NCBI RefSeq assembly: GCF_031877795.1
Contig: NC_133933.1
Span: forward strand, 64,120,984-64,184,983
DNA from: Strix aluco
Taxonomy: Eukaryota > Chordata > Aves > Strigiformes > Strigidae
DNA length: 64,000 bases
Reading direction: 5' to 3'
Below, one piece after another: positions 9,463-54,479 of this stretch. Below the pieces are notes generated by a model. It made no database searches and was not told the origin of the DNA. It worked only from the letters and a program-made list of their open reading frames with translations. Both the position numbers and the translations under genes were made by a program. The stretch's first letter is position 1, and the number at the start of each line of letters is the position of its first letter.

Positions 9463-9593
9463 ATGGAGGCGGATTTCGCCGCCTTCGGGAGCCCGCTCTG
9501 CGGCGAGGTCAAGCGGTTCTGCAGGCGGGTGCGGGAGACCTACCGGGAGATCAAGGAGGACCTCACCCCCTACAAGGATGACCGCTACTACCG
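9463..9593 (+). CDS. TMEM181: TMEM181 coding exon 1 (long form)
   Basis: It encodes residues 1-44 (MEADFAAF.. to ..DDRYYR), matching the human N-terminus. The ATG has G at -3 and G at +4. The exon ends after two bases of the R44 codon at a gtacgg donor, which is a slightly weak donor. Confidence 0.9.
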
Positions 9594-18500: not shown

Positions 18501-21500
18501 TCTTTAAACCGTGAGAAAGTGCAGTGTGTACAGACAGACCCAGTACTATGAATGTAGGTAGCATATATAATCATTTAAATGAAAGTGGTTTTGATGGTTT
18601 TATTTGGGAGCGAGCCTAAAATAGAAAAGAGCAGTTGGAGGCAGAGATGTTGAGGCTACTATGTCAGAAAAACTGCTGGGCGTAAAAGCGAGTTATTTCT
18701 GATTTTATTATCAACTCTGTGCTACCTACTGCTTAATCCCAATTTTGTCACAGCCTTCCCATCTGTGAAGTGAGAGTCTTAAGTTAAAACTATTGTATAA
18801 AAGGCTCTGTTTTTCATAATGGTCTTTAGTAAAAACTGTGTTGTGCAGGCATGAGAAGTGATTTGAAGATGGGGAATAGCCTGAGAAACTTTGAGCCAAA
18901 ACTTTACTCAAAGAGCAAGATTTAACCTACCTTTACATCTCACATATGAATGGCTGCTGGAAGATTGCAGCTCATGGAGTCATGAGTGTGCGTTTCCATA
19001 GTTCACCCCATCACAGACTGCGTTAGTGCAGTTAGTTTTTTACTACTATTTGAGATGCCTAAGTATACTGTTTCTCTGTTTGTATCTCAGTGCTTTCTGC
19101 TCCTTCGCAGTTAGTTTCAGACATATCCAATTTAATTACAAAATATTTAGTTTACTTATAAAATATTTAGTTTCTGTCTGAGTTAGGATAAAACTCAGTA
19201 CAGGTGGTAAAAGCTGCCTGAAAAATCTGCAGACACTTGGATGGCTAGTCTTGAGCTTTGGACTGCCTTGGCCAGGCTGATTAAAGCATCTTCCATTGGT
19301 AAAGCAAAGCACAGTTCTTTACTCATTTGAACAGGTGCTTCCAGAGTGAGGAACCTTTTTTGCTTTTCCCATAAATGCTTCTCAAACATTTTATTCTTTA
19401 TTAGGCTTTTCAGATGTAAGAAAGAAGCTGTTAGTGGGGGATCATCAACTTGCACTTATGTATATTCATAGATTTTATATAATCTCTTTCCAAAAGGCAG
19501 ATGTTAAACAATGAACATATGGGAAGATCATATTATTTGCTTTGTACGTCAGCTGGTGATACATTGAAATGAGGCACTTAAACCACACAAGGAAATTCTG
19601 TTATTGCAATGAGGGACAATGAATAATATATCACCCGATAGGAATGCTATAGATTGTTGTTTCCTGTCAACGATAAGTGTAGTTAAGATTTGGCCGAGTT
19701 CTTGTATTTACTCTTACAAAAAGTGTCCATGTTGCCTTATTGACCTGTAAAGTAGCACATACAGTCAGTGGCTTAAATGAGACTTCAGGAGTAGCAGTAG
19801 GAAAGAAGAAAGGAAGGAAAATGCAGAGTGTGTCCCTACTCTTTCTGGTCTCCTCTCTTTGTTACGTGCCAGCTGACTGTTGTAAGGTAGGTGTATACCT
19901 ACCCATTTTGACTACTAGGTTTTGCACCACCTGGAGAGGAGTTGGAATAAAGAATGAGCCAATGTCTGGAACACGTTTCTCAAAAAACTTGCAAGTGCAT
20001 CTGTGCGCTGGTGTACAAGTAAACCAAGGTGATAATTGCTGCAAGCCGTAACACTGAGTGTTGGCTAAGTGGCTCTGGTGACTCTCTTGTAAGGACTGTA
20101 GAGATGAAGCTGCTTTTCATGTTCACATTATGCATTTTGAAATGTCTGCAAAAACTTAGAAACTAGGAAGCTTACCAAAAGAACCAAGAATATGCATAGC
20201 AAGTCAGAAGTATCCTGCATCAGACTGGAGCTGTAAAGTGGATGCCCAGATGTAAGCTGTTAAGGACAGCACAAGCATATGTGATACTTTCCTGCATATA
20301 TACGATACTCTTCCAGTCGTCAGCTATTCTCAACCCTTGGACTTTCCCATCCAGACCTGGTTTCTGTGTATGGAGTGATCCTTAGTGTGAGCTCTTCCAT
20401 GAAACATTTGGTATCCACTTGAACCCTTATAGTTAATGCAGGCATATCAACATTTTATATACCATTTTTATATATCAAGGATTTTCTTAATAGGATTAGT
20501 ATTTTGGTATCTCAAGATAATATCCCATATCTGGTGTTCTTAAGCACACAAGGAATACGAGGTTATCTGTGGAACTGAAGGAGCCCTTGGAACAGATAGG
20601 AAAATGCAGCTTAGTTATTTAGTTATTTCAGTGCTAGTACAGATGTCATATCTTTAAAGTGGTTTAAGTGCATGACGGCTGAGGTGTTAAGACATTGATT
20701 TAAAGAAAATGCTGTAGTTATATCCCTACAAAAGTTGTGCAGACAAGTTCTGGTTTGAAATGCCTTTATTTGGCATTTTTCAAAGTCAACTTAAAATCCT
20801 ATTTGTCTGTGAGACTTCTGTGTGATGATCTCTGTGACAGATGTCCAATCACTTCCTGTTTATGACTGTGATAATTTCAGGTGTGATTTACCTTTTTTGC
20901 CTGTACAATCAGCTATTCTGACTTCTTAGACTGGTGTGGGGTTTTTGCTCTGCAGAACAGAGCGTGGCAAGGCAAGTTCTGCTGTGTTTGCAGGTGCTAT
21001 GCCAGGAGTCCTGTACAGCCAGTTTATGCAAACTTGTAACATTTACAGTTACTTGCTTGCAGTTCTCATTACTTCTGTGGATTTTTCCTCCCTTCCCCAC
21101 CTCCTTTGTGAGTCAAATTAAGATTTGGATCTTGCAAACTTTACAGCAAAGGAATAACGTAATTATTTTTGTAGTGCCTCATTTGAAGAGAATGCAGCAA
21201 TTCTTAAAGAAAATAGAGGTTATTATTAAATCCTTTTGCTGGTTTAAAGTGAACTGTTTGCCTTTTTTTTAAAGGCTGCCAGGCATGCAGGCATGGGGTA
21301 CCTGGTCCCAGAATTCAGGCTGGGCTTATGAAAAGGATTCCACCACCTTTTCTGTGTTATTCATTAATGTGGTGAACCAGTGAGAGCACCATTCAGCTGG
21401 TGAAAAGAAGTTTTATTCCAAGCTGAAAGGAAGCACTGTCATTAAAGACTTACGCTTTCATTTCTTTCCATGATGGTGCTCATACAACTTTATTGGAAAG

Positions 21501-24500
21501 CACCCTCATCCCCCACCCCCAATCCTTCAGCTTTCCCATATAAACTGTACAGCTTTCCATGATCATACAGTAGAAAATCAGCTATATGGTGGCTCAGTTT
21601 TGGCATAACTCAAAATGAGATGTTGATTGTGTTTTGAAACATGGTGTATTTGTCCTCTTTTGAACTATGCATTTAAATAAAAAGGAAGATAGAGGAGGGA
21701 TATGTTATGTAGGATTAATTTTTTGAGCATATTTCCCTTAAGCTAACAGAACTGGAAGTTACCTGTTTCCAAGAGAATGCAGTTGGTCCTTTCAGGACTT
21801 TTTTCCCCTCTGTTTTGTCTTTAACCTAATGATAACCACCAGTCGTGGAAGAGATGTCATTGCTTTTATCTGTATTTGAATTTAAGTGTCTAATAAACTT
21901 AAGTTCAGGTTTCTATTTTCCAAGCTTTGGTGGAGCTCAGACAAGAATGCAGAGCCTGAGCATGCAATATCTAGCAGATCTGGAGTTCTGCCTTACTCCT
22001 TGTTAGGGGTTATCCTGCAGGGATAAGGTGTATATATATAGGGTGTAGAAAACTCATCAAGATCCTGTGCAGGTAACTGAGTTGTTAGTGACATCAATCC
22101 CTGTAGGTTAAGCTGTCATTGCAGGAGACATGGTATCTTGGCAGTTTAAATTATTAACGTATGAACTAAAAAAATGTAATTTTTTCTTCCTCTAAGAAAT
22201 GCTTTCTCTTGCTCAGGTCTTAGGACAATAGAAAACCCTAGCATAAAAAGAATGGGCAAAATTAATACATTTTGGGGCATGGATGTGTGCGCACATACAT
22301 ATGTCTAATAATTCCTAATAGTTATCCTTGCTCTATAAAAGAGCATTTTTTTTTTTTTTTTGGTAGTTAGATGTTACCTCAGAGTTTGTTTTAATTTTCT
22401 TTGGAGGAACGAACAGGGTCTTTTCCCCCCCTCCCCTCCTTTTAGAAATATGACTGACAGCTAATTAATTCTGTGCTTTCTTTTGCTTCCTGCAGGTTGG
22501 CACCGATGCGATTATATACGCTGTCCAAACGGCATTTTGTTCTGGTCTTTGTAGTATTCTTTGTTTGTTTTGGTCTGACAGTCTTCATAGGAATAGCAGG
22601 TAAGGATGTTGTCTTTTAAAAAGATTACAGTTCTTGTAGGCTTTGTCTAAACCTGTTGGTATTTACAGATGTATTTAAATGCTAATAAGCTTACAGCCCC
22701 TGAGATGTCTGAGGAAGCATTACTTTTGACAGGGAGGGGGAGGTGTTTCTTCCATCTTATTTTTATAGGAGTACTACCTACACAGATTTGGTATTTGCAA
22801 CCGCTTTGCAGGGGAGAGTCAGTAAAGTAAAACAAAACCAGCTTCATTGTAATACAATTTTTCAGCAGACTGCTACATTAATTTTCTTCTTTGTATTTCA
22901 ATCTGTAAAATGGTGATGCTAATACTTGATTTCCTGTGATGTAATGTAAAAATATGAGCTTCTCTTGTCGAATATATATGAGTTTAGGTCTCTGGTTTCA
23001 AAGACCTTTGGGAAGCCAAGCACTTAGTGCCTGGATACTTATCCTGGAGATCAGAGAGATTTGTGGAAGTCTGTTCGACAAAGATGCAGAGTGTCATTAG
23101 GCAGATGGAAAGCGTGGGAGCCCTCTGTATTTCATGCCAGAGAGCTTTTTGAGGTCTAAAATGTACTTGAAAAAGAAGTCAGCATGCTGTCACTGGAGTG
23201 CTAATAAGCTAATACTCTGCTGTCAGGATAGCTTTGTCAACACAGAAGTGACAGACAGGGAGAGGGGAAGGGAGGGACTCATTAAGCAACCTGCCCCCCA
23301 TGTAAGAGTTATTTAAGGTCGTTACCAGCTCCCCCCACTTTACTGCTTATTTCCATGTCACTCTGTGCTCTCCTGTGCTGCTCTCTGATACCTCTTTACC
23401 TGTCTGTAGGGTTGTTTCTACTTCTGCCCTGTCCTTCACTTCCTTTAGGATGAGACTGGCTGCCCAGGCCTGAGACTCATCTGCTCCTGCCTGCCTTGGA
23501 AAGAAGGGGGGATTAATTGGAGGCAGCTGTTTGGGCTTTTTATGCCCATCTGTGCCTTGTAGGCAGTACATTCTTCATAATAGCATTAAATAATAAAATT
23601 TGTCTGTGAAATAAAACCTTTCCTGCTGTTTGATTTATTGTAGCAGCCTAAGGTCCAAATAGGCTTTCAGTTCAAAAAGGTTAACCACTGATATTCCTGT
23701 GACTTGCCTAAGGATGCTGAAGGGCATTATTTGGCCACTAAACTACCATATAAATACATTTACGAAAATGCATTTCATATGGATGATAAAGGAAAAAAAC
23801 CCTGGAATTGCTTAATTTAGTGTCATTCGGGTTAAAAAGTGAACCATATTTATAGTTGTGTATTTATACTGCCCAGTTGCAAGAAATGCAAGTTTTATGT
23901 AAGACTAGGCTAAAGGCAGTGCTCCTGGAAGAGAAAACTGAGCATTTCATTCTTTATTGGTAGCAGAACCTGAAAGAGAGCTGTGTTGGTGTGTTGCATT
24001 GCATCTGCATGCAGAGTGGTCTGATGATGTGGTTGCCTTTGGTCCAGGGCACTTGGCTGCTGTAAGCAACAACGCTTGGTCATCTGTACCCTGCTGGGGT
24101 CCCAGGGCTTGCCTGTGATCCCCTTCAGGAACTAGCATGGCTGTGGGATTTTTGTCTTTGTATGACTGGTTTGATGGATAGTTTTGCTGACAAAGTGTGA
24201 ACACAGTTCATTATTACGACTTAATTATTTTTAAAAGAATGCTGTTTACCTTGGGAGGAGACCCACTGAACACTTAACTGTGATGTTTTTCTTGTTGACA
24301 GCTCCTTGCTTCCTGTGAATAGAGGGAGGGGCCCTAACAGTAGACTCCTCCCTCATTAAAGCAAAACTCACCAAACCCACTAAGTAAATGAAAAAGTGGG
24401 AGATACATCCATATTTTCTGTGCTACTTGAATGCTCCATTGCCCATACTCAACATCTCTATCTGCAGTTTGGGAAGCCTAGCAGAAGTCTTGCTTCTCAT

Positions 24501-27500
24501 CTGAGAAAACAAGAGAGTTTAATCTGAGGTGGCTGTTGCTCTTCAGTTCTTGTAACCCAAGATGCAGGCTTGGGTTTTTTTTCCTAAATTACACTTACTT
24601 TCTTTACCTTTTCCCAATGTGTCTATGTTGTCTTTGGGGTGAGACAAATGCAAGGAAAAATCCAAGGCACAGAGCTCATTTTCTGTACCTGTGCAGTTTT
24701 CCTGTTCACCACCCCAGGGTGAATCTTTGCTTTCAGATGTGATTCTGTTAACTGAGCAAGACTAAAAGAAAAACAATAACCATGTAATCTAATCACAATT
24801 TTTAAAAAATATGACCACAGCATCGTTTTGGTCAGTTGCTTTAAAAAGCTTTAATATATTGCTTGCTAGAGGAGTAGCAGTTACAGCAGCAGAACCTCAT
24901 TATTTTTTTGGTTGCTTTTCTTAAAAACTGGGGCTATGATCCCTCTGTCCCAATTGGTTCATATCTTCTGGTAGAAGAAAAACCTTTTTAAAAAGGCTCA
25001 TTCTGTTGTTTTTGCTAAGAGTTAATTGCTGAAATCTGATGTCTTATCAACTGTGAGCACTTACTGACATTGAATTATGCTTTTCAAAACAAAAATGCCT
25101 TCCAAAAATCTGCCCTGTTTATATGTACTTGAGAACTGAAAAGTTCAGTGATGCAGAACTGACTTTATAGGGGGTGGCTGTTAGTGAAGTTGAACTGTAA
25201 TTCTAATAGGAGGCTTTGAGTGTGATGGGTGAAATTCTTAATTTTTCCATTTAAAGTCTGTAAGATAGTTAATATTGTAATTAGAGTGGTTATAGAAGCC
25301 CAAGCAATGCTGCATGTTTAGAGCTGTCATGACATCTAACGTAAAATACTTCTTGCACAGAATGATCCCATGTTGCTCATTTATAAACTTCCTTCTTTTC
25401 CATTTTTTCTCTGTACTAACTTTGAAGTCCATGGTCTTTGTGAAAAACTACTTTTCCTGCATAATTTTTTAAATATGAAATTTGTGGCTGAAACAGCGTG
25501 TTTTGAGGATTAATAAATTATATTAAATTGCCAGACCAAATATGTAAGGGGAGAGACCATTTGGACAGAGAAATCTCACCGTGACTGGGAAGCCTCTAGA
25601 GTGACCCAAATACACACATACATGTCCTGCCTGTGTCCCTACCTGCTATACATCTCCTCTGTGTTTATTCATACCCCAATATACAGATACAGACCTTTTC
25701 CTACTCTTTGCTTTCATTTTTCTGGTTTAGTCCTTCTGTGTGTGTACACACACACATGCATTCCTCTTCTCCCCAGTACCATGTGTTCTTACATACCTAA
25801 GAAGGCTAAGGTGAAACTGTACCGCTGTCTACAGCAACCTTATCAGGATATACAGAAGATGGGGCTAGACTCTTCTCAGAGACAAGCTGGAACACAAGAA
25901 ATTCCAGTTAGATATTAGGAAAATTTTCTTACCATAAGGGTGGTTAAATATTGAAACAGGCTGCTCAGGGAGGTTGTGGGAGTCCCTGTCCTTAGGGATG
26001 TTCAAGACTTGACTGGACATGGCCCTGAGCAACCTGGTCTGATTAAATAAGAGCATGGACTAGATGGCCTCTGGAAGTCTCCTCTAACATAAATTATGAT
26101 TTTATTGCTTCACATTTACTGCATACAGAACTAGAGGTAGGGCGTGCGTGGATGGATGCAGTTGATCAGTACGTGTTAAGTGTATATGTCTAACCAGAAT
26201 GATTGGAGGAATGGTTGCATAAAAAGTCTGATAGTGAGCTCAACGTCTCCCACTACAGTTGGACATGAAACTCCATTGATTAAATGGATTGTCTGTTTTA
26301 GGATAAATTGTTTATAGAACTTTTATGCAGTTATATTTATTTATGTGATGATATACATAATATATTATCACCCCAGATTTCTGTAGGAAAGGAGAGCCCC
26401 AATCTGAGTAGACTGAGAACTGCTCCTAAACAAACATGTGGGTATCTTGGCTTGAACAGACCAATATGCGATGAAAATCCAGTACTGGCCAGAAAGTGCT
26501 GTTATTGTGATTGTACAAGCAAGTACACTACACGTACAGAAAAAGGCATTAGCATCATGCACCCCAGTACAATGGGATGTGTTTGCCCTGGTACCCGAGC
26601 GTTTAGTGCAATGCATTATGGACGCTATACTCTCTGTAAATCAGCTAATGGTGGTAGTTTGGCTATAGAAACTTTATACTGCAATGAAGTATGCTGGTTT
26701 TTCATGTGGTTTTTGCAGCCGTTGTTGAGCTTCAAGTTGCTGTAACAACAGTGCCACTGGTGCTTAGATAGCTTTTCCTGTAGCTGGGTACTTTCATGAC
26801 TGCAGTGTACTGCTTAGCTTGGGAAAAATACTGTGTGGTTTGTTGTATAGTTTAGAGTATACATGCAGGGCTTCTGACATGGAGTTCTTGATTTATAATT
26901 TACTTCCTATTTAATCATGCCTAGAAAAAATTGTGGCAGAGAGGTTTAAAGGAACATTCAGGCCAAGTTTATCAATTATATTGAAACATCTAAGTGATTT
27001 ACCCTTCAGATGAAACATCTGAAAAGTGGGATACTATTTACCTGCTTTGCAGGGAGGTATTTTGTATTTACATCATTACTTATCAGTAATACGCATGCTT
27101 CGATATTGTTCTCTTTCTTCCTTCTTATATAATTTATAGGTCCTAATGTAATTGAAACTTCTGTAGCAAGAACCGATTTAAATAACAGCCTAAAGGTAAG
27201 AGTTAATAAATACCATTGGATTACATGAATTACTTTATTTTATGTCAGTAATGTTAAACAATCCCCCCCTTCCCCCCAACTATTTTAAGTCTTTAAGTTT
27301 TTACTGGAAATCTTCTTGGCCACATGGTGCTTTCCAGTTTGAAATTGAACGTGCAATATTGTACTACCACTGTGTTATTTCTTGAGTGGCCCAGCAGCAA
27401 TTTCTAGTCTCTTACTTTTGTGAGCAGGTAAGGTAGAGAATTCTATGATGTAATTTCTGATAAAGTAACACCTGAGTGTTGATAGGATTCCCTGGTGAGT

Positions 27501-30500
27501 TCATGTTGGAGATTGTTGTAAGGGGTCTAGAAATAGAAACTGAGAACTTAAACTGAAAAACAATGCTCTCAGTGGCAACTAATGATATCACTCTTGTGAT
27601 TTTCCTTTCTGTCAACTGGGAAGGAATATTTCTTTTTCTTGTTAATTGTTCACTGTCACTTGACCAAGACATGGGATCTGGCTTCCTAACATGAACCTTC
27701 ACATTCATTTTCTTGAAAGCTTTCATATTTTGATTATCAGTTCTTGCATTTTTATTTCTGTCTAGCTCTTCATTGTCAACCTAATATCTAAAGTAATTTT
27801 TGTGAAAGTGCTAAAAATGTTTTGTTGTTTTGTTTTGATTTTTTTTTCAAGTAAATTTGCTTTAAATACACTGGAACATTTCTCTTTTTTTGGTCTGTTA
27901 GTCACCTATATATGTTTGGATTGGTACTGTATTGTGGGTGGTTTTGAAAAAAGCATATTTTTATATCAAATAAGAGAAGTCTTTCCTGCATGTAGGTTTT
28001 ATCTGTTAATGATATCTTCCATGCTTTTGAAATGAATGTGGGATTTCTAGAAAACCTAGTGGAAAATACTTGTGTTCATAATTATAGTTGAACAGGTTTA
28101 AAACTGTGTAGCAGATGAGGAGTCATAAATCTGACTTCTGATGTAAAGTGCTAGAAATGACTTTTTATTTCCAGACTAGGTCTCAGGATTTTCTTTTCAT
28201 ATCTGAACTTTTTTGTTTTATTGCTGCTGCTTTTATGTGCTTTAAGTAGTTGTACCTTTCCTTACTTCAGTGCTGTGCAAAATATGTGTGCTGTTTAAGC
28301 TACTTCTCTGGAAGGCTTATGTTTGAGCCACTTATCATATTGTCTACATATTAAATCTCTCCCCCAAAGTATTGTCACAGATGTAATTAACATGCTTTTC
28401 ACTGTAACTGCAGTATGTCATGTAATGGAATAATGGTTGGTGCTAACCTTGTGGGTTTTTTACAGCTGAAGCCATTTAATTTAAGTTCGCCACCACTGTC
28501 TACGTACAATCAGCAGCTGTGGCTGACCTGCGTAGTTGAGTTGGATCAGCACGATGGTGAGAATCTTACCTAATTGTCAGGGAACAGCTATAGCAACCTG
28601 TATATTGTGTCTTTAATTTTGTCTGTCACATTTGTGCTTCTATTGCTTTCTGGCTATGGTTGGTGGGTTTTTCCTCTGATACATTTTCTTCCCCTCCACC
28701 CCCTGCCCCTGGTGAAGACATGGACAGCACTGATCTTGAGAACTGGAAACAACAGGTGTATGGGATAAGTGATTTGTTATTTCTGTGACAGCAGTGGTAT
28801 CTAGAGAGTCTGTGTCTCTCTTCCTTCATTTGGGGGGGGGAATTAGATGTGTAGATTATAATGATATTAATTTTTCAATAAAAATTCCCTGTAAATATGT
28901 GAGAAATACTGTAATAGTAATTGTTAATCTGTCAAGATTCAGTACAGGGCATTTGGGATTTAATGCCTAAGTATATAAATAAAAAGTTTGTGTTTTTTTT
29001 TATTTGTATGTTGGACCTCTACTCCAGTAAAGTATAACTGAATAACTTTGAGTAATCGTAGGATATCATATGTGTTTTAAACTATATTTGGAACTCCATT
29101 TGAGATTTCATTTCTGCATGTAGCAATAGCTTAATGTTTTCTCTTTTAATTACAGTATCCCTCAAAAAGAATGTTACTATGACAGTCAAAGTACTTGGGG
29201 TGGTGAAGGATGGAAGCACACCATATGTTAATAATCAAGTTCACAATCGGACGAGATTACTCAGTTGTGCACAAGTATGTGCTTGCTTAAACAAAACTCT
29301 GATGCAGTATATCTACTTTAAATCTATTTGTGTGCATGTTACCTTATGTTGCAAATGAGAAGAATATGTCTGTTAAGCACGTCTCGGGAAAGAATCTAGA
29401 GTATAGTTTTATTTATAATTGCAATTTAGCTAGCAATGCTGACCAAGATACCTACCTATCTGTGTTTTTCTATTTACTTCTGACTTGTGTCTACCCCTTA
29501 AAGACCCCTCTTTCTTGTTAGAGCAGCTTTCTGTCAGCAAAGCAATGTGTCCTGCTTAGTCAGCTAAACAAATTTAGCAGTAATGAAGAAAGGGATATTG
29601 AGGTAGAAGATTGGATATAGGGCTCCAGAGGAGAGAAAAATTCTCCTCCAACACCTAGCAGAGAGTCTGGTTGAAATCAGCTGGCATCTGTGTTCTGAAA
29701 AAGCCAAATTGCTTGCCACCTGAGAAGAAATGTTTAAGTCTTGGAGTTTCTAGTATAATTTTCACTGAAATTTTTAAGCTTAGGGACATCCAAAACAGCT
29801 TCTCCAAATGCAAGTCCTTTAGGAAGGGCATAGCTGAAGTTTTTTTGTGATAAGCATATAGGGTAAATAAAAAGCTTTCTTTTTATATATGAATGCATCT
29901 ATATGAAATCTTTAGAAATTAATGAACAGTGTTCCATTACATTTAATTACACACAGGCAAGAGAGCAATATGCTTGAGTTTCTTTTTCATCCTGTTAACT
30001 TTTAGAAATGAATTAGTACAAGATAACCCCATCTCACAATCTGATGACCTAAAGCTTGACTGACAGAGTTATTCAGATCCTTCCTGGTGCTGCAAGCAGT
30101 TGCTTTCACCAGTTTAAGTGAAAAGCTAGCCTTGTTTTTTGGCTCAACCTTTGATCCTGCTGACTGACTTTATCTATCAGTTTCTGGTATCTTTCAAGAA
30201 ACGCTTTATCTGTGGGTCTTGTTTGAGTCTTATTCTGACTGATCAAGAATAAATATCAATATCTGGCCATTAGAAACAAATTCTCCAACCTCTACTAACT
30301 GCATATTCTGGAATAAATTGAAGGCTTTTATGTACTATTCTTCACTGCATGTGTTCACAGAAATGCAGTGAAATCATTGTTGCTCACCTTGGCTACCTGA
30401 ACTACACTCAGTACAACATATTTGTTAGCTTCGAAGATTTAAATAAGTTGACTTACACCATCCAGAATATTACTTTCACGGTAAGTATAAAATTTTATAC

Positions 30501-33500
30501 TAGCAAAATAAATCTCTTTAATTACTGATGCTGTAGAAGTCTGCTTTAACTGTAATAAAAAGTTATCTTATTTTTGAAGATAAACATAAATATGTATGAT
30601 TAATTTTTCTGTCACTGCTAATTTCAGAACTATTACAGCATTTGCAATTAATAAGGGTCTAGGCCAATTTTTTTAACGCTATAAGGAAAGATTTTTCTTT
30701 CAGAACTGCTAATGCTGTTTTCTGGAACAGATAAATTTAGTCTAATTCCTGGGAGATATTTTTAACAGTAGGCAAGCTAGACTAGAACATCCAGTTTTCT
30801 GCCTTTTACTTATAGAGATGTTGCCTCTCTAAAGCATGGTATCTTTTTCAGCCTTTCCAGTAGGTGGGTAGCAAGATTTTTTCAGACTTTACAAAACTGT
30901 GGGCTAGAAAGATTTAACAAACTCAAAGAAAAATGAATATTTTTTTTGACTGTGCTTATGAGGAAGGAAAAAAATGTTTATTCAGCTAAAATAAGCAGGC
31001 TAATAAAATAATTCACTAAAATAATCCCTAGTGAAATGACTAGCTCAGTTTGTAGTGCTAAAGATTGCTTATAAAACAGTTACATCATCCGTGTGTGCTG
31101 ATTGGCTCCAGAAAGAAATTTAGAAACATTTGCATTGGGAGGAAATGAAACTAAGCCAAATTTATAATACAGGTTACTATGATATATTCTACCTGTATGC
31201 AACTTTCAGTATGTCAGAGCAGATAGCAAGCAAAAATCTTACTGTAAAGCCAAAGTGTTTTTTATATACTAAAATAACTTCCTGAATATTAATATTTCTA
31301 ATCTTCTAGTGCGTAAAGCACATGATCAAAAATAAGCTTTAAGGGGAAAAAAAACCCAAACTCACAAGCCCTTTGCTCAGTTCCAGATTTCAAACATGAC
31401 AAAGTGTTGGAGCATTTATAGTTGTACGGTTTATTATCTTGGTTTGCAGGCTGCCTTTAAGGCAGACTTGTGTGCAAACCTAAAAAATCCCAAACCTAAA
31501 GCCCTGCTTTCCCACAGCAACTAAAATTGTCAATTTATTTCATTATTACAGTGGTTTATGCTGATCTCGGTTACAATCACAGATTGCCTTTTGTATAATG
31601 GGATTATTTACATATAATTTTCATTGTGCATTTACAGTTTTAAAAGGTAAGACAGAGGTTGTCAGACTTAATACATTGAAAAGTAAAGCTTCTTGTTCAG
31701 ATGGGCAGAGCATATGTTGTACCAGTGAGTTTACATTTCAAAAGTGGCTTCAAAAGAGAAGCATGCCAGGTAGGAGAGAAATTGTCAACAGAGCAGAGTT
31801 TCTACAAACTGACGTGTTATAATTAATATTTGTGCCCTTCTAATAATTAGAGAAGGAGCTTTTCCTCCTTAAGCTGTGAAAAAAGTTCTTTATTTCTGGT
31901 TAGCCCATTTATTCTTCCCTTACATGGTTTTCTTTTTCCCGCTTCTGAAACAAGAGAATAACCTTTAGGAAAACAAACCCATTACAGGAAGCATGCCTGT
32001 ACCTAATCAACCTCTTCGTAATCAATTTATACATCTGACCTTGGTAATAAAGAACAACATACTGGATTTACTCCATTATTGGCATACAAACTTTGAAAGA
32101 AAGTGCAATTGAAATTAATGAAGAATATCCTTCTTGTCCTGAGAACTGCTTTAACATATGACACCTCACTGAGTATGTTACAAGGTGGCAGGGTAAAAGG
32201 GAAGCAAGGATATGAGTCTGCTTTGGTTATCTTCTCGTCAGATAGTCCTATAGGTGTGAATTTATCTTTGTCTTTCCATGATGACATGGTGGAATTTGGT
32301 TATACCTTTAAATTTTGAAAAGCCAGAGAACTTTTCAGTATCTGCAGAAAGTGCTAATTATTGATGTCATCTGTACCCTATCAAAACATTGTTGGGCTAT
32401 TTTTCTTCTGTTTTCTTGTAGTGGAAGACCTACAATCCAACTTTTTCACAAGTGGAAATATGGTTCCGATTTGTCTTTGTAGTTCTTACTTTTATGGTCA
32501 CGGTAAGATTTTGTTTCTGTTTTCCTGGCATGTATTGTGTACACAGCTGATAACACTGCTTTGTAGTACTGTTTAGTAACTTAACCCCAGGCAGCAGAAT
32601 TGAGATATCACTGAATGGGTGTAAAAAATGTTTCTAAAATACTTACGTAGTTGCTGCTTTTATGTTTTTACAAGTAGTATTGAAGGGACATTAAGAAAAT
32701 AGGATAAATGGGAAAACTTGTTTTTCTAAACTCTGATTTTTAATTGAATAGAAAGAATTTTGCTTAAGCAAAGGAAATTGTGATTAGATGCTAGAAAAAA
32801 TATTTTTTTGCGGTGCATGTAGGCTCAGACGTTGAAATAGGATACCCAGAGTGTGGGCTTTCTGTCTCTGAAAATGAGCAAAACTCAGTTGAATATGACT
32901 TTCATCTAACTTTAAAGTTGTCACTGCCCTGAGCATAAGGATGTGACAGATGACCTCCAGAGGTCCCTCACAACCTAAATTATGCTATGATTTAGATTAT
33001 GTCTCCCCTCCAACCTGGTTTGGCCCCTGGGAAGAAAGTATCTGGAAAAAAAAAAAGCAAAACAACATAAAATCTAAAATGCAGAATTTTCAGGGTAAGG
33101 ACACTAAAGTACTGAACAGCATTTTCTCACATAGATGATGTCATTCAGCAGGTAACTGCGAATGTGATATAGAATCTGTTTTTTTTAAAGAGTTTAAGTG
33201 GAAGTTGTTGGTAGTGTGTGACCAGTGCTTAGGCAACATTTTTTCATACATTGTTGATTTGTGTGGTACTTGCTGGTTTTCTTCTCAGTTTGCTTGAGAG
33301 ATGAAGTAATTTGCATTGGGGAAAGCCAGCAAACTTGAAGCAGAAGTAGAAGCTAGGAGATGTCGCTCCTGTTACAGTGTTCTCAGTGAAGTAGCCTTTG
33401 CAGTGTGCTGTGTTATCTCTTTCCTCTGGTAAAACCATTAAGGCTGTATTCCTTCCTTACAAATTGTTGTTGTTGTTGTTTTATAGTGTCTGTTTGCACA

Positions 33501-36500
33501 TTCCCTGCGGAAATTCTCCATGAGAGACTGGGGTATTGAACAGAAATGGATGTCCATTCTCCTTCCCCTCCTGCTACTTTACAATGGTATTTACATCCTG
33601 GAATTTTTAGAAAAGCTCCTTTCTTAAAAAAAAAAAAAAAAACAAAGAAAAAACAAAACAAAGAAAAAAAAAAACAAAGAAAAAAAAAAGAGCATGAGAG
33701 AAGATAGAGAAGGTTGAGTGGAACTTGGCCTTGAACTTACAGGCAGCTCTTTATAAGGTTTCAGAAAACAAATTAAAAAAAAAAACCAACTCTTTTTAAG
33801 TGTGTCAAATTCTGGGGCATAATGAGTAAGTGGATTTCATTCTTTTCAGTCATGTGAATTGCAACTCTATTTGTTTAAAGCTCTGACTGGAATAGGTGGA
33901 TGCAACCATACTGAACCTTTCATAGAGCGACATGTAAATGTAATTCTGTGTTTGCCTGCTAAGTCTTACTTCTGCATTTTTCATATACTCCCACTTTAGT
34001 TACAAATGGAGACTACTTTTAGTCTGGTAAACCACCTCAAGTTCTAGCACACTCTAGCAGTACCAAAAGAATATTTGCCTTTCAGTCATTCTATGACAAT
34101 TTTTTAGGTCAGCACCAAGAACAGTGCTTTAGTAGAAAGTCTAATAAAACCTGAAATCTTCTAGAAATGTTGGCAACCAATTCAGATGATTTCTACAGCA
34201 CAGAGGATTGCTGCTGGAGGCACCATTTTCTTTGTAAACTAAGATACAGCAAACTTCATTTACCGGTGTAATTTGAAAAATCTGGGTTTTTCTGTTCCTC
34301 TGAATATACATTCTGCTTTACTTTTCATAATGGAAAAGACTGTGCTTTTTCCCCTCTGTTTAACTTTTTTTTCTTGTTTTGTTACAGATCCATTTTTCCC
34401 CCTTTCTTTTCTGGTGAACAGCTGGTTTCCTGGAATGTTGGATGATCTATTCCAGTCACTGTTTCTGTGTGCATTGTTGTTGTTCTGGCTTTGCGTCTAC
34501 CATGGTATAAGAGTACAGGTAAGGGTGCAACATTATCTACTACTTACTGAGAAAGCAGTATTTGCTTTTTCAATTCTCTCAAAAGGTGACAAAAATGAAA
34601 CCAAATTTTTAAAAAAAGAGACATTTATTCCTGAAGTACAATGTGACACATGAAGCTTTGGGGTTAAAAATGATTTATGGTGAAGCAGCTTGTTTTGACG
34701 CTACGTGCGTAAATGAGATAGAAGGGACAGTCTACTCTGAACTATTGCAAGCCACTCTTCAGAACTATGGTGCAATTACACTTTGTTCTTGCTTGAAGGG
34801 TCTTCTTGTTGTATATGGGGTTGATTGTTTTTTAAACCACTCTAAAATACTGCATAAGATAAATATGAATTCTGAAGCATATTTCTGTATTTGCAGTATC
34901 AGTGAAATATGTGGGACCTTATAAATAGGATGCTACAAATCTATGGCATCTTATTAACACAAATGATGATACAATTTTATGTCTTCTGTGATCACCTGTG
35001 CAGGTTAAAAATACAGACGGCAAGTCTCTTAATCTAGTTCACGTTGAATGAAACAAAGATGATAGTTGTTTTATTCTGTCAAGAATGAATGAAATCTTGA
35101 ATGTGGGTTCACTCCTTCACCCTACTATTGTTTTCTCAACAGGGGGAAAGGAAGTGCTTAACTTTCTATCTGCCCAAATTCTTTATTGTTGGACTACTGT
35201 GGTTGGCCTCTGTTACATTGGGAATATGGCAAACGTAAGTAATTTAAAATTTAGTGCAAAAGTAATGAGCTGAGAGTGTTCAAAGAATGAGAAGATTGTT
35301 TATAATTAGTGGAATCTGTTTCTTAGTGCTCTGATTGTTATATAGGAATGGAGCTCAAATTCTTACTTCTGTTTTGCAAATTTTGACTGATTTGAAAACA
35401 GAATTCCCCATGGATGATCTAGTAGTACGTAATTTTATAAATCAGAATGAGATCTAGAAATCGCTACTTTGTCGATATGTTACGGCTCCCTACCATACTC
35501 CCTCTAGCGCTAAGTCCCAATTATCTTTTAGTATTTGAAGCAACAGTTTCTCTGTAGTTAACTATTACACAGCTTGACCCAAGTTTCTCAACTAGTAAAT
35601 CTGCACAATTGGTATTGATGCTGCTTAGTCAAGTAATGCTCTCTCTCCTGAAAACTCAGTTCTTTTGCTTGGTTGAGTGTCTCTTTTTTTCCAATCTGTC
35701 ATGTTAACATAAAGGTGTCACTATTCCCCACCCAGAAAACTTTCTCGGTTTTGGTACATTTGTGGTTTCTAAACTGTTTTAGTCTCAAGCGTTTGCCTCT
35801 TATTTTCCTTCTCAGAAGGAAGATACCTTCTGGCCTTCTCCATGCCGTTGTACATTGTTGAAAGCAGTGGAGTTGCAGGAAATGCTCATGCTAGTGCCTT
35901 ATCAGAAGAATGGCTGTGAGGGAAGGGCTTACTTATATCACAGTTATTTCTTAAGTATAATTCTTATCACCAAGGGTAAAATTTAAACACTAAATCCTGA
36001 AGGCTTGTAGGAATTTAGATGATAATACATTTTCTAAAAAATAAGTGTGGAGATTAGACATGGTCACAACTGAAATCCTCCTATTCCTTCAAAATTGGGT
36101 TTGGGAAGAAGGAGGATGTTATATACTGTACATTGTCATGACTCCACTGGAATCAATGGCATTGCCCCAATTTATGCAGCCAAACCCTTTGGTTATAAAC
36201 TCTGTATAGTAACTTTAAACCTTTTCTTTGTTAGTTTGTTTCTTGATCAGTACGGCTTTTTGACCTTGTCTTTTGTAATGGTGTAAGTACCACTTTTTCA
36301 TTTTGAATCTTTTCTAGTGTTAATGAAGTACATGATCCTACATATCAATACAGGGTTGACACAGGTAATTTCCAGGTAAGTCAGAAATGTTTTCTTGCTA
36401 TTAAATTGTCAGGTGGAGTTAGGCAATACAAGGAGGTGGGGTTTTTCTATTAAGATCTCTAACACAATTTAGAAAATAGCAAATGCTGGTCAGATGGTCT

Positions 36501-39500
36501 TATTCTGACTAGGGTGCTTTTAATTTTGCTTTAAATCATGCACAGGCGATACTGAACTCCATCCCAGTGAGAAAATTGACTTGAAAATCTGGAGACTCAA
36601 CACCACAGGTTTACACATGGACTCATTACTGTTGGGATTGAAAGAAAATTTTTTAAGCGTCTTATTAAATCAGTTTTGTACATCTTTACTCCTGCCAAGA
36701 TCCTCTGTCCTAGTAAATTTCAGACTTTCTTGTTGTAAAGGAAGATCTGATTTATATGGGTCTATGTATTGTTCAAAGGAGCTGTGTTTTTAGAAAATCA
36801 TTGAGATTCAGCTCACTGTCAACAAAATTATGACTTCTATTAAACATCCTTTCCTTACATTCCCCAAAACCCTACCTTGATGTATAGCCATTGTTGTTTT
36901 GTACTTCCTTTCATGAGCCTACTTTCCCTGAATAAATGGACCGCTTTATGTTGTGCTTTGGGAAATAATTATTTATATTGACAGAAGAAGGAATAGACCA
37001 CATCTTGTTAAATAATAAAAACTAACACTCTTCTTATAGGGAATGAAAATCTTCTTCCTTGTGGTGGCAACCACATACATTCTCTACCTTTTGTTCCTGA
37101 TAGTGAGGGCATGCTCAGAACTTCGTAACATGCCTTATGTTGGTAAGGAATATTTCTTTTGATTCTTCCCCAGACAGGCTTGCTTCTCCTAGATGTAGGT
37201 GTAAATTTGCTAATAACAACTTTTCTCAATCTTTTCCAGATCTCAGGTTAAAGTTCTTGACTGCATTAACCTTTGTAGTGCTTGTCATTAGGTAAGGCCT
37301 TTCAAAGTACATTTCTCAGTACTGTAACTTTTATAACTTTTTTTTCAGGACTTTGAATACATTTTGTTGATAATAAAATTGTCAATGAAACTGAGGAATG
37401 CCTTTCGATATGGCAAGCATTTCTTATTTTTTTAACCCTTCTTGAGGCTTTTAGAGCTAACTTTATATTATTTCTGTTACCACAGCAATACATAAAGATT
37501 TAGAGGTTCACTTAGCAGAGATGTTTTCTGTACTGCTGAGTGGTCTGCAGTGCACCGTTCACCTCTTTTGGAGCTTTATAAGCCTCACTTAGTCAAAACA
37601 GAAGTTTAGAACTAGTTTCTTAGATTATTATTAATATCTGCCTCCTTCACTTCAAGCAGTTATTTCAGATTACTGTTGAGTCTTGAATTGTCTGTAGTGG
37701 ATGAAATCTGAGTGAAGTAGACCATGTTTTTTTTTTTTTTTTTCTGCTTGATTCAGTTGATTGCTGACTTTTAATCACAAAAGAATCATTCTTAATTTAG
37801 AACGATAAAAGCAAATATGTCTTAAAATAAATGGTCAGCATGTTAACGTAATTATTTTCTCATATGCTCTTCTCTCAAGCTATCATTTCAGTTTTGTGGC
37901 TTAAAGACTCAAGACACCAATATGCTTTAAATTTTTCCACAGCATTGTTATACTCTACCTACGCTTTGGAGCACAAGTTCTACAGGACAACTTTGTTGCT
38001 GAGCTGTCGACTCATTATCAGAATTATATCCTTGTGTTGTGATACTGCTCAAGTAGGAATGTTAATCTGTTTTCATGCAGAAGGCACTTAAAAATGATGT
38101 ACCTAAGGACTGAGACCTTTAACTTCTAGGTGGGCTTTTGAAGCTCAGTCCATTTTGATTGAGGTTTTATGTCAGCATTTTGTAGTAGCTCTTTGTAAAC
38201 ATTATGAGCTGAGACAGTTTCAGTCTAATTTGTTTACATCACATAAATCACAACTGCATTTGATACTTTTCAAAAGGAATGAAGGCCTAGATATGCATGT
38301 GTTCAAGTAATTTTAACAAGTCATTGTGACAAATTTGGCTGTATTTGCTGCATGAATTCAGTTTGCTGTTTACCTGTCAGTTGGCATGGGGCATACCAAA
38401 ATATTTGAGAAATTAATAGTTTAGAAGTCACTGAAAATGCATTTGTGTATTGGCCCAAGTCTAGATGTGGAAGAGGTCATAGCAGAGAATTTATGTGACT
38501 TGAGAGAGACTATTTCTGATGTCTGTTGGCAACAGGATTGTGAACTGTATTTCTGGACCTGAACCATGAGATCGTAGTTCATTTGACTTTCTGAAAGTGC
38601 CTGTGTGACTGCAATTGCTCTGGTTACTGATAAGCTTAGATATGTGTTGGGAGCTAGTAGAAAACAGCATGTAAAGCCTTTAGTGTTTTCCCAAAATGAT
38701 GGCAAGAAGCCATCTTCAGAGTCCTATCTACAGATAGTCCTTTCTCCTTCCTTCACAATTGCTGTGCCAAGCAAGAAATTTTTCAAAAATAAACAAAACC
38801 ACCCCACCTGAACACTCCCCTTACTCAGCTTGCTTTTAGCATTGAAGGCAGAACTATGCAATTTACCATGCGCTCCACCACTCAAGAGTACCTTATCTCA
38901 GCAAATGTTACTTGTGTTAAAGCTTTGTCTTCAGTGGGAGCTTTACCTTGAAATAGCTTGAGTACATTAGTGGTCACTGAATTTAAAACACGCAGTTTTG
39001 CTTATCCATTCATGCTCTCAGACTTGAAGGTAAACATTCTTTCCACTGAAACAGCTTATCTGTGGTTTGGGTCTTGTTTCCAAATTTAATATGTATGGAG
39101 CTATACTGAGAAATATCCTTGACACTTAATACCAGCAGAATTCTTATCATTTTATGGTTTATTGAACTTTTATCTCTACACTTTAGCCTTTGTGTATTCC
39201 CCCTCAAAGAATGCACTATATGGTAAGTGTAAGCAATTGTCTGGCAAACTCAGATGACAAGAGCTGGCACGTTAGCAGATATTGTGTAACATCTGTATAT
39301 CTTGGTTTTCTTGTTGCTGTTTCAATTCGCTTTGAGTAAACATAAGCAGAAGCTGCACTGTTCCTGAGCAAATTAGTGTTGGAAATATGAAGGAACACAT
39401 AAAATGTATACAACTCATTATCTAGACTTGAATTCTTATGCACTTAGATCAAGCTGGTAAGTCAATATGATGTTTGCAGATAATGCACTAACTTTTGCAC

Positions 39501-41885
39501 TGACTCACAGACAATCCTTAAGAAGCAACAACCCTTCATTTGTACTTTGTTCTAACAAAGGTTAACATATTGGCATGCTGGCAAACTGGACTCTGGAATA
39601 GGTACCGTGCTGTTGGAAAAGTAGGAGTGCAGCTGATCTCTAACATGGGAGGGATTTTGGGGAACTTGCTATTGGGGAGAGGGTGGCACAAGGGACATGT
39701 AAAGGACTGAATCAGTGGCACTTCTGGTTTTGCATTCTTATGTAGAGGATGTAATCTGACTCACATGATGATTATAAAGTGTTAGCCCTCTCTTAACAGA
39801 TAAAGATCTGTAAAATCAGTATTTGTACTGAGTGCATTCTCTGCTTTAAGCATTGAGTTTAAAATATAGAACTGTAGAACAGCCCAGGTTGGAAGGGACC
39901 TGGAAAGATCATCTGGTCCAACCCTTCAGGGAAAAGGGAGCCTAGATGAGATTTCTAGCACCCTGTCCAGACACATCTTACGTGCTGAGAGGTACGCAGG
40001 GGGAAGGCTCTAAATAGTGGAGCTGGTCCCTTCTCTAAACTTTTTAGAGTTGAGAGGGACGGAACTGTTACAGAAAAACGCTATTTTGCCATTAAGAAAG
40101 ACGAGAAATGGCTGGGTGAGGATAAAGTTAAAAACTTGCTGTTGAGTTGCAAGAAATATTAGTTTATAGAAGGCAGAAGGCCAGGAAAAATATGTTTATG
40201 GCAAATTGCTGGACTGAATTTTACTTGTGTATAATTATGAACTGCAGCTAAGCAGCACAGATCATACAAGAAATGAAGGCCTTAAAACAAGGTAGAGGGA
40301 ATTGTCATAAATAGCCAATAAAAAGTATGTGTTTCCTTTCATCTCACCATAAAGGTACAAGTCCTTCCTTCACCTATTTCAAGGATGAAAAATAACTGCA
40401 TACAAGGGATTACAACTTTGGTCTACTATCTCTGTAGCTTAGAAATAACCAAGAAGTTAAAGAAGGCTGTGCTTTTTAAATACATATGAACATTTGAATA
40501 ATGATTAAGAATAATGAGGTCTGACTTAATTACTCTTATGTGCAAGTTGAAATAATATGACATAGGACACTGCAGAAGGGAGGAAATCCACTTAGACAAC
40601 ATGGAGAATATCTGTCTGAAAATGAGATAGTTATGTCATCTCCTTAACTCTTAAGAATACCATGATGTTGTAGCTGAAGGGTGAAGAATTTAGAGAGAGT
40701 TCCTGTTTGGATATAGTTTTGTGACTGCCTTGGAGATTGTCGAGTCTGCTACAGTGTTGAGTTAGAAGTCCAGCCTCATTTCTGTATTTAATGTGCTAAA
40801 TTAACCCTTATTTGTGTTTTCCAGAATCACAGTTGAAAGACAATCCTGCTTTTTCTATGCTGAATGATTCAGATGATGATGTGATTTATGGGTAAGATTA
40901 TAAAATACCTATGGAGAGTTACTTTTGGTGTGGTTTTTGTAATTTTCCATATTCATTAAATAAATTATTTGTAAGTTCTTAGTGAAAGTATTCTGCCTAA
41001 AGAACAGAAACATAGCCTTATTCGGAAACAGAAATGCAATTAGAATACATGTTATTTTGTTTTTCCTTTTTTTGGTTTCTAAAAGGGATTGCCATGACAC
41101 TGATACAGACAGGTAAGAAAGTATTAGGATGCTTGTAGGTCATGGAGTGAAAGCAGCAAGAGCTGTGAAAGGAAAGGACTTCCTTTTAAACGGGGAAGGG
41201 TTGCAGGAGTCAGGTGGAGTTAGCAAAGAGGCAGCTCATATGTAAATGCTTCAGGGAAGGAGAATGGCTCTTCTTAAGTGTCCATCACTTACTGAAATAA
41301 GAATAACTAAATCTAGCAAAACTTCCTAGACATGAGAATTATAGCAGTGCTTAAAACACACCCTCATAAGATGTCTCTGTGCTAGACCCTGAAAATTCAT
41401 TATCTGCCCTTGTTTTCACCTCTTACCAGACACTAAAGTGGCTGGAACAGTGAGGATGGGATTAATATTGCAGTAACCCGACCAGATTTGTGCTAGACTA
41501 GCTACATGCATTGTCTGAGATAGCTTGCCTTTGTTTAGTTGGATAAGTAGTGGTAGTACCAGCTTGCTTCTGTACAAATCCTTGTGAAAAGTGGCTTGTA
41601 GTTACTGGAATAACTTTTATTATGCATCATCCTTTGAAGAGAACTCTTATATATTGTTCATATTCCCCACAAGGAGGAAAACAGATACCAGCTTCTTACC
41701 CAAATAACAATTTGATACCTCAGTGTAGTTTAGAACTTTCCTGTTTATTTTGGACTTCCTATCTGAACACCATGTTCAGAAGTTTTAACAAGTATCTGTT
41801 TCACAGGAGTGACTATGAAGAAATGCCACTTCAGAATGGCCAAGCTATTAGAGCCAAGTATAAAGAGGAATCGGACAGTGATTGA
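9463..41885 (+). CDS. TMEM181: TMEM181 (GPR178), multi-pass membrane protein, 17 coding exons
   Basis: The 17 exons join with no phase conflict into 1557 nt (518 residues plus TGA), colinear with my memory of human TMEM181. The N-terminal 44 residues are charged. TM1 is at about 58-78, followed by a luminal or extracellular domain (about 79-215) with six N-glycosylation sequons (N93, N102, N133, N158, N181, N203). Seven further hydrophobic segments lie at about 220-238, 256-275, 288-306, 318-340, 363-384, 398-420 and 445-464. The acidic tail ends ESDSD. The family is related to Wntless and GOST-type seven-helix proteins, and human TMEM181 has been reported as a host factor for E. coli cytolethal distending toxin; its normal role is poorly known. 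Junctions: 9593/22496, 22599/27140, 27195/28466, 28556/29156, 29274/30361, 30480/32422, 32502/33487, 33586/34388, 34518/35143, 35234/36318, 36375/37040, 37142/37240, 37291/37943, 38025/39133 (AT-AC), 39222/40825, 40891/41807. Confidence 0.95.
10555..11035 (+). mobile_element. CR1 LINE 3' fragment
   Basis: It starts near 'ctgtgtccagttctgggcacc', continues through degraded UTR-proximal sequence, and ends with 'ggaggtctttaaaaac..gacaaacat..aggtctcttccagctct..tttactatgaatctgag', the usual 3' end of CR1. It is truncated at the 5' end, as most CR1 copies are, and clearly diverged. It has no coding capacity. Confidence 0.8.
15440..15560 (+). mobile_element. MIR-like (CORE-SINE) remnant
   Basis: The match is to the MIR 3' half: 'aagtgacttctggcaagg', then 'ctctctgtgcttcagtttcc', then 'acctgttcaatgagaagaat' in the consensus order. 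MIR copies are scarce and very old in birds, so a readable one suggests slow decay or use as regulatory sequence. Confidence 0.6.
17554..17561 (+). CDS. TMEM181: TMEM181 alternative first coding exon (short form)
   Basis: ATG GAG CC then a gtgagt donor. Eight coding bases leave exactly the phase that exon 2 needs, so translation would read MEP then LAPMRLYTLSK. From memory, a mammalian TMEM181 protein starts MEPLAPMRL. The short form would be 477 residues and lack the charged 44-residue N-terminus. The start context (G at -3, G at +4) is strong. The 5' limit of the exon is unknown. Confidence 0.75.
17680..17830 (+). repeat. G-rich minisatellite in TMEM181 intron 1
   Basis: About seven or eight imperfect units of roughly 18-21 bases are built from a G5-9 run, 'agccctg' or 'aaccctg', and 'cccg'. 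They start about 120 bases after the alternative first exon. The G-runs on the + strand could form G-quadruplexes, and the array is likely length-variable. Confidence 0.8.
18716..18775 (+). mobile_element. possible MIR-like remnant
   Basis: The short match 'cagccttcccatctgtgaag' plus 'tgagagt' resembles the MIR 'tttcccatctgtaaaatgag' segment. It is too short to be sure. Confidence 0.3.
22496..22599 (+). CDS. TMEM181: TMEM181 coding exon 2
   Basis: It encodes residues 44-79, including LAPMRLYTLSKRHF and the first membrane helix (about 58-78, rich in V, F and L). The acceptor is tgcag and the donor gtaagg. It is the common acceptor exon for both first exons. Confidence 0.95.
22880..22945 (+). 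mobile_element. MIR-like remnant
   Basis: 'tatttcaatctgtaaaatgg' followed by 'tgatgctaatacttg' follows the MIR 3' consensus (atctgtaaaatggggataataatac). A possible further match, 'cacttagtgcctgg', follows at about 23019-23032, as in the MIR tail. Confidence 0.55.
25812..26104 (+). mobile_element. CR1 LINE 3' end
   Basis: This is a clear CR1 3' segment: 'gatggggctagactcttctc', 'gctggaacacaagaaattcc', 'gctgctcagggaggttgtgg', 'gacatggccctgagcaacc' and 'gactagatggcctctgg', ending in 'aaattatgattttat'. It is 5'-truncated, younger-looking than the copies at 1430 and 55485, and in the same orientation as TMEM181. Confidence 0.92.
26985..27070 (+). mobile_element. MIR-like remnant just upstream of TMEM181 exon 3
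   Basis: 'aagtgatttacccttcagat', 'catctgaaaagtgggatact' and 'acctgctttgcagggaggta' follow the MIR 3' half in order (tttcctcatctgtaaaatggg..acctacctcacaggg). It ends about 70 bases before the exon 3 acceptor. Confidence 0.6.
27140..27195 (+). CDS. TMEM181: TMEM181 coding exon 3
   Basis: It encodes residues 79-97 (GPNVIETSVARTDLNNSLK), the start of the luminal domain, with the sequon N93-N-S. The acceptor is tatag and the donor gtaaga. Confidence 0.93.
28466..28556 (+). CDS. TMEM181: TMEM181 coding exon 4
   Basis: It encodes residues 98-128, including the sequon N102-L-S and the conserved STYNQQLWLTCVVELDQ. The acceptor is tacag and the donor gtgaga. The exon ends at phase 1. Confidence 0.95.
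29156..29274 (+). CDS. TMEM181: TMEM181 coding exon 5
   Basis: It encodes residues 128-167 with sequons N133-V-T and N158-R-T and the VHNRTRLLSCAQ segment. The acceptor is tacag and the donor gtatgt. Confidence 0.95.
30361..30480 (+). CDS. TMEM181: TMEM181 coding exon 6
   Basis: It encodes residues 168-207 (KCSEIIVAHLGYLNYTQY.. to ..IQNITFT), with sequons N181-Y-T and N203-I-T. The acceptor is cacag and the donor gtaagt. Confidence 0.95.
32422..32502 (+). CDS. TMEM181: TMEM181 coding exon 7
   Basis: It encodes residues 208-234 (WKTYNPTFSQVEIWFRF..), entering the second hydrophobic segment. The acceptor is tgtag and the donor gtaaga. Confidence 0.95.
32922..33001 (+). mobile_element. CR1 LINE 3' tail
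   Basis: 'actgccctgagcataagg', then 'gatgacctccagaggtccct', then 'cacaacctaaattatgctat' and 'gattta' form a classic CR1 3' terminus. Only about 80 bases remain. It lies in TMEM181 intron 7, same strand. Confidence 0.85.
33487..33586 (+). CDS. TMEM181: TMEM181 coding exon 8
   Basis: It encodes residues 235-268, including the conserved loop FAHSLRKFSMRDWGIEQKWM and the start of the next helix. The acceptor is tatag. The donor gtattt is weak and an A-rich tract follows shortly. Confidence 0.95.
33626..33690 (+). repeat. A-rich low-complexity tract
   Basis: An A18 run is followed by caaag-separated A-runs, starting 40 bases after exon 8. It may be the decayed tail of a retroposed copy or slippage-grown A-rich DNA. 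It is probably length-variable and hard to assemble. Confidence 0.8.
34388..34518 (+). CDS. TMEM181: TMEM181 coding exon 9
   Basis: It encodes residues 268-311: DPFFPLSFLVNSWFPGMLDD, a membrane helix (FLCALLLFWLCVYHG) and IRVQ. The acceptor is tacag and the donor gtaagg. Confidence 0.95.
35143..35234 (+). CDS. TMEM181: TMEM181 coding exon 10
   Basis: It encodes residues 312-342 (GERKCLTFYLPKFF.. to ..LGIWQT), one membrane helix. The acceptor is caacag and the donor gtaagt. It ends at phase 2. Confidence 0.95.
36318..36375 (+). CDS. TMEM181: TMEM181 coding exon 11
   Basis: It encodes residues 342-361 (VNEVHDPTYQYRVDTGNFQ), a polar loop. The acceptor is tctag and the donor gtaagt. Confidence 0.95.
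37040..37142 (+). CDS. TMEM181: TMEM181 coding exon 12
   Basis: It encodes residues 362-396, a membrane helix (FFLVVATTYILYLLFLIV) then RACSELRNMPYV. The acceptor is tatag and the donor gtaagg. The following intron is only 97 bases. Confidence 0.95.
37240..37291 (+). CDS. TMEM181: TMEM181 coding exon 13
   Basis: It encodes residues 396-413 (DLRLKFLTALTFVVLVI), a membrane helix. The acceptor is tccag and the donor gtaagg. Confidence 0.95.
37943..38025 (+). CDS. TMEM181: TMEM181 coding exon 14
   Basis: It encodes residues 413-441 (SIVILYLRFGAQVLQDNF.. to ..STHYQN). The acceptor is a normal cacag. The exon ends at an ATATCCTT donor instead of GT, which is the U12-type AT-AC 5' splice site. Confidence 0.93.
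38026..39132 (+). other. TMEM181: AT-AC U12-type intron in TMEM181
   Basis: The intron is 1107 bases. It begins with ATATCCTT, the full U12 AT-AC donor consensus, and ends in AC (..taatac). A branch-site match TATCCTTGAC is at 39114-39123, with the branch adenosine 10 bases from the 3' end. Only this AT-AC boundary joins N440 to SAEFLSFYG in frame (T|CA). Confidence 0.9.
39133..39222 (+). CDS. TMEM181: TMEM181 coding exon 15
   Basis: It encodes residues 441-471 (SAEFLSFYGLLNFYL.. to ..SPSKNALY), the last membrane helix. The 5' end follows an AC acceptor (U12-type). The donor is a normal gtaagt. Confidence 0.93.
39862..39985 (-). mobile_element. CR1 LINE 3' fragment
   Basis: 'actgtagaacagcccaggtt', 'ggaagggacctggaaagatc' and 'atctggtccaaccctt', then 'agcctagatgag', are the reverse complement of a CR1 3' end. 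The copy is short, antisense to TMEM181, and lies in intron 15. Confidence 0.85.
40825..40891 (+). CDS. TMEM181: TMEM181 coding exon 16
   Basis: It encodes residues 471-493 (ESQLKDNPAFSMLNDSDDDV, then IYG), the start of the acidic cytosolic tail. The acceptor is tccag and the donor gtaaga. It ends at phase 2. Confidence 0.95.
41086..41112 (+). CDS. TMEM181: candidate 27-nt cassette microexon of TMEM181
   Basis: Between exons 16 and 17 there is a strong pyrimidine tract and an aaaag acceptor, then 27 bases, then an excellent AG|gtaaga donor. The entry and exit phases match the neighbours, so inclusion would insert DCHDTDTDR into the acidic tail without shifting frame. I do not recall it in the main human isoform; it may be an alternative exon. 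Confidence 0.5.
41807..41885 (+). CDS. TMEM181: TMEM181 coding exon 17 and stop
   Basis: It encodes residues 493-518 (SDYEEMPLQNGQAIRAKYKE, then ESDSD) and TGA at 41883. The acceptor is cacag. It is nearly identical to the human C-terminus as I recall it. Confidence 0.95.
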
Positions 41886-49108: not shown

Positions 49109-54210
<5,102 letters not shown>

Positions 54211-54467
54211 CTTCCCGGTGGAGCCCCTCACACCGCAACCGACACCCCGGCACCGGCACCACCCCACGCGCCGGCCGCTGCTCACAGTGCGCCTGCGCCT
54301 CTGGCCCCGCACCCCCGCCCGCGCCGGGCTGCGGCGCTTGCGCAGCGCTGCCCGCGGGAGGCGGCGCCCGACCACCGGGGCCGCTCGGCGCTCTACGCCT
54401 GCGCGCCGCGCGCGCCTCTGCCTCGGTTCCGTACAGCCGGGCGCTCCCCTGCCCGGCCCGTTGGCAG

Positions 54468-54479
54468 TGCGCATGCGCA
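54468..54479. promoter_or_regulatory. palindromic NRF1 site
   Basis: TGCGCATGCGCA is a perfect NRF1 consensus palindrome, 258 bases upstream of the DYNLT1 ATG and within a cluster of weaker relatives. Confidence 0.7.

Follow-up and report, generated by a model that had tools for sequence, protein, structure and literature searches.

Intron 14 of TMEM181 as a very probable U12-type AT-AC intron and its traces in public gene models

U11 and U6atac recognize the donor of U12-type introns, and the role of U12 in this class is likewise established. The AT-AC members of the class (A-type minor introns, collected in U12DB, SpliceRack, MIDB and IAOD) are the closest described counterparts of intron 14 of TMEM181, which lies at 38026..39132 (+ strand) of the 64-kb stretch of DNA analyzed here in full (hereafter, the window). 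The two share the donor, the branch site and a short distance from branch to acceptor, along with AT-AC ends, a phase other than 0 and conservation in vertebrates. Intron 14 differs in its branch purine, which is G (TCCTTGAC), and in a branch-to-acceptor distance of 10, which is slightly short, but nothing in these differences is categorical. Intron 14 also belongs to the same terminal class as the AT-AN introns that depend on CENATAC, a factor that promotes them in human cells; these introns are described as responsive to CENATAC and as having a relatively high basal retention (PMC8280824). The main text of that paper does not mention TMEM181. U12 introns are described as slowly spliced (PMC7367187, PMC8280824, PMC2831892, PMC3584512, PMC10639083) and as very stable in vertebrates (PMC2831892). 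An earlier note on this DNA had called AT-AC introns a small minority of U12 introns; a minority they are, but not a tiny one, since Table 2 of PMC7367187 puts their share at 18% in chicken and 26% in human. Searching the full text of the literature, we found no paper tying TMEM181 to a minor or U12 intron, nor KIAA1423 to an intron. TMEM181 and the spliceosome do co-occur in papers that, by their titles, concern liver steatosis and horse endometrium.

Gene model, boundaries and splice signals

The coding region of TMEM181 (9463..41885, + strand) comprises 17 exons encoding 518 aa in a model for which human TMEM181 served as a guide, exon ends were read off the sequence, and the exons were then joined. 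Its joined frame is open, the protein has Pfam matches to WLS-like_TM (1.2e-85) and TMEM181_GOLD (1.3e-42), and homologue rows support it, the Parus major row differing in 4 places and the Ficedula row in 6. Fifteen of the 16 introns have GT-AG ends, the exception being intron 14, an AT-AC intron of 1107 bp in phase 1. Exon 14 (37943..38025, + strand) ends with STHYQN plus a T, and exon 15 (39133..39222, + strand) starts with the CA of the split Ser codon, followed by AEFLSFYG; the exon numbers 14 and 15 used in the earlier note hold in this model. Exon 14 has a single match in the 1.41-Gb source genome, and thus a second copy was not found there.

Combining donors from 38008-38039 with acceptors from 39118-39149 gave 1,024 pairs, and AT 38026 with AC 39132 was the sole pair to give STHYQNSAEFLSFYG (STHYQN-SAEFLSFYG). 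The claim that only an AT-AC boundary joins these two strings in frame was therefore borne out, and the boundaries originally proposed are exact, with ATATCCTT starting at 38026 and the intron ending in TTAATAC, its final C at 39132. Every pairing of the GT-AG alternatives near the intron ends (three GT and two AG in the tested ranges) lost the frame. The pair AT 38026 and AG 39135 was a near miss, remaining in frame with loss of the Ala to give STHYQNSEFLSFYG.

The U12-type 5' splice site ATATCCTT (38026..38033, + strand) agrees with RTATCCTT at 8 of 8 positions, and the other 15 TMEM181 introns do so at 5 of 8 at most. The sole + strand match to TCCTTRAC within the intron is the branch site TCCTTGAC (39116..39123, + strand), with its presumed branch A at 39122 and with TATCCTTGAC located at 39114-39123, near the 3' end. 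The AC 3' splice site (39131..39132, + strand), identified from the sequence and the boundary-pair test, has its last base 10 nt past the branch A. Perfect donor, branch A 39122 and C 39132 together support the U12 type and give the distance of 10 that had been reported for this intron. That distance is just below the published optimum of 11-13 nt (PMC3584512), and AG 39135, at 13, falls inside it. U12-type introns are expected to lack a distinct polypyrimidine tract; the pyrimidine fraction from -20 to -4 before the acceptor (0.59) is low but only the second lowest among the 16 introns, after intron 16 (0.53). A second exact copy of ATATCCTT, at 39113-39120, shares five bases with TCCTTGAC (39116-39123).

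The source genome contains a U12 snRNA match scoring 147 bits, above the Rfam cut-off, and the 5' part of this RNA, GAGTAAGGAAAA, contains GTAAGGA, which, as judged by eye, can pair with TCCTTGAC with the branch A left out and one G-U pair. An Rfam scan of the 64-kb window itself returned nothing at the gathering score.

Motif rarity by itself was rejected as evidence, as sets of donor, branch site and AC arise by chance in about one-third of simulated windows (at least one set in 34.5% of 200 Markov-1 windows). On both strands of the window, ATATCCTT was seen 6 times against 2.41 expected by chance, and TCCTTRAC 7 times against 4.73. These expectations correspond to a chance per position of about 2e-5 for the donor and about 4e-5 for the branch motif; what does not look like chance is that both motifs coincide exactly with the exon ends that protein homology dictates.

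The junction in homologues and in faulty gene models

Comparison of the junction across vertebrates, which the earlier note had proposed, was run here on proteins. The homologue search matched 718 proteins, of which 120 were listed, the rows being representatives of 90% clusters; among these 120 matches listed, the junction is shared in its normal form by 79, reads QNSEF in 3 and is broken in 38. Among the 25 bird rows listed (birds judged from their names), the junction is right in 10 and wrong in 15, fractions that refer to cluster representatives and are no measure of error frequency; one right row, P0002, represents 535 member sequences. The expectation that many avian annotations would be wrong at this point thus holds for part of the record only, the 15 wrong rows speaking for it and the 10 right ones against it. 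All 9 listed bird rows with uniref as the only listed source are wrong, and the 10 right rows have names of the kind used in NCBI annotation; from accession style, our guess is that the wrong bird rows stem from Ensembl. Annotations in IAOD are taken from Ensembl (PMC7367187), and U12 catalogues built on broken models could miss TMEM181 intron 14 in the affected species. A single non-GT-AG intron accounts for a mistake that recurs in public gene models: among the matches listed, the junction is broken in 15 of the 25 bird rows and in 38 of all 120 rows.

Several of the faulty strings can be reproduced from this DNA. Forcing a GC within exon 14 (37963..37964, + strand) to AG 39135 gives, on translation, the faulty protein SIVILYLPEFLSFYG, a string found in bird rows P0007, P0013, P0014, P0017, P0089 and P0095 and in turtle rows P0062 and P0073. 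Forcing TT 38032 to AG 39138 gives YIQFLSFYG, the string of P0004 and P0010. The Callipepla (quail) model P0112 stops at YILVL, which is the product of reading intron 14 as far as the in-frame TGA at 38040..38042 (+ strand). Among the 15 wrong bird rows, neither GC-AG, TT-AG nor read-through matched P0006, P0015, P0016, P0057, P0080 and P0111, six in all; P0006, P0016 and P0080 read YLLPAEF, and P0015 and P0057 read NYPFLSF.

All 17 of the rows that we picked from the lgn source have the normal junction in one uninterrupted frame. This set, hand-picked and not a census, consists of rows with several exons each, their contigs being 998-4,769 bases long, and a search aimed at the exon 14/15 junction was the first to list 11 of them; the remaining lgn rows are read-through ORFs or rows left unclassed. 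We infer that the picked contigs are transcript-derived. One of them, P0248, is identical to the predicted TMEM181 protein at 281 of 284 residues in the part that starts at residue 235 and takes in all the rest (exons 8-17), and its contig has 4,769 bases, compared with the 8.4 kb that the same exons span in the window DNA; by its sequence, P0248 is bird-like, with exons 8-17 joined and a SAEF junction.

Intron ends can also be deduced from faulty proteins and read-through ORFs when the DNA itself is missing. In the frame of exon 14, T followed by ATATCCTT encodes Tyr-Ile-Leu and a GT start would give Cys, while Ser at this position indicates a spliced product or no intron. The exon 14 end was readable in 236 of 299 rows, with 198 Ser, 37 Tyr, 1 Ala and no Cys. 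The Tyr rows include mammals, a turtle (P0064), a monitor lizard (P0123), a quail (P0112), fish (P0125, P0128) and the bird-like P0240, and 30 of the 37 read Y-I-L; the misfits are YIN in P0116 (Amia), YIQ in P0004 and P0010, YPF in P0015 and P0057, and YTE in P0256 and P0259. At the other end, P precedes AEF in 29 rows (9 named gene models, in which the codon may be patched together, and 20 ORFs), as expected if the last base of the intron is C, with misfits of G in P0031 and P0107, N in P0246 and A in P0213. Two fish-like rows, P0151 and P0212, read Y-S-L-T just before the acceptor, as TCC-TTA-ACN would encode, and P0240 tracks intron 14 of the window over 20 residues, its TGA read as Trp. 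In faulty models and read-through ORFs of fish, reptiles, birds and mammals, Y-I-L thus marks the donor and P-AEF the acceptor, and an AT-like start and a C end of intron 14 would seem to be kept in other vertebrates.

Nature and age of the intron

We conclude, with a probability of about 0.95, that intron 14 is a U12-type AT-AC intron that goes back at least as far as the ancestor shared by the sampled ray-finned fishes and land vertebrates. It is ordinary in kind, a member of a known intron class, and the AT-AC finding is correct. Going by the signals of the intron, the minor spliceosome very probably excises it: from what is established for the class, U11 and U6atac would recognize ATATCCTT and the exons would be joined at 38025/39133, presumably with help from CENATAC, and a failure of splicing would leave the intron in the transcript, where a stop codon begins at intron base 15. 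Minor splicing might limit the output of TMEM181, which is a general possibility in the light of PMC3584512 and PMC8280824.

A U12-type intron might instead end at AG 39135 (AT-AG; candidate acceptor at 39134..39135, + strand, 13 nt past the branch A), whether as its sole acceptor or alongside AC 39132, with a difference of one Ala in the protein. The reading frame would be intact, the distance lies within the optimum given in PMC3584512, and QNSEF in P0054, P0056, P0102, P0243 and P0245 matches the predicted product. However, these are just 5 of 299 rows, none of them named as a bird, and some of the models may derive from pipelines that prefer AG; AT-AG combinations appear disfavored (PMC3584512), and the bird-like joined contig P0248 reads SAEF rather than QNSEF, so that we regard this ending as unlikely. 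We similarly doubt that the AC/CAG acceptor is a working tandem, in which use of AC (10 nt) or AG (13 nt) would yield TMEM181 with or without one Ala in its transmembrane domain, as a minor-class analogue of NAGNAG kept across vertebrates.

Removal of an AT-AC intron need not involve the minor spliceosome, as major AT-AC introns exist (PMC8280824 examined 85 of these or of related subtypes), but the donor here is a perfect U12 match and the U12 branch site, close to the intron end, can pair with the U12 snRNA of the same genome, which makes a U2-type intron very improbable. Equally hard to credit is true splicing from GC 37963 within exon 14 to AG 39135, which would yield the string of the 6 bird and 2 turtle rows but would swap 23 conserved residues for one Pro, against a normal junction in 10 of 25 bird rows among the matches listed and in all 17 picked lgn rows; the GC-AG junction is more likely an annotation artifact.

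As to the age of the U12-type AT-AC intron, ORFs that are probably invertebrate (such as P0154, P0163, P0164, P0171 and P0177) each keep one frame across the whole of exons 13 to 15, with outer exon ends that agree. Because the frame is uninterrupted, introns 13 and 14 seem to be absent from them, an apparent absence that fits PMC2831892, where 194 of 267 invertebrate orthologues lacked the intron concerned and losses were considered more frequent than gains. Two neighboring introns both seem to be missing in these ORFs, and their gain or loss is datable in principle. A model from the coral Acropora cervicornis (P0215) omits some of what the bird errors skip, which may point to a non-GT-AG intron at the same place in corals and gives a weak hint that intron 14 may be older than the vertebrates sampled.

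Beyond TMEM181, DYNLT1 exons were located on the - strand at about 49112-51160 by tblastn with the human protein; DYNLT1 is the neighbor expected next to TMEM181 from gene order. The kilobase at 54001-55000, with 69% G+C, may be the DYNLT1 start region. Within the 12.9-kb intron 1 of TMEM181, the kilobase at 17001-18000 has 75% G+C and could be an alternative promoter or a CpG island.
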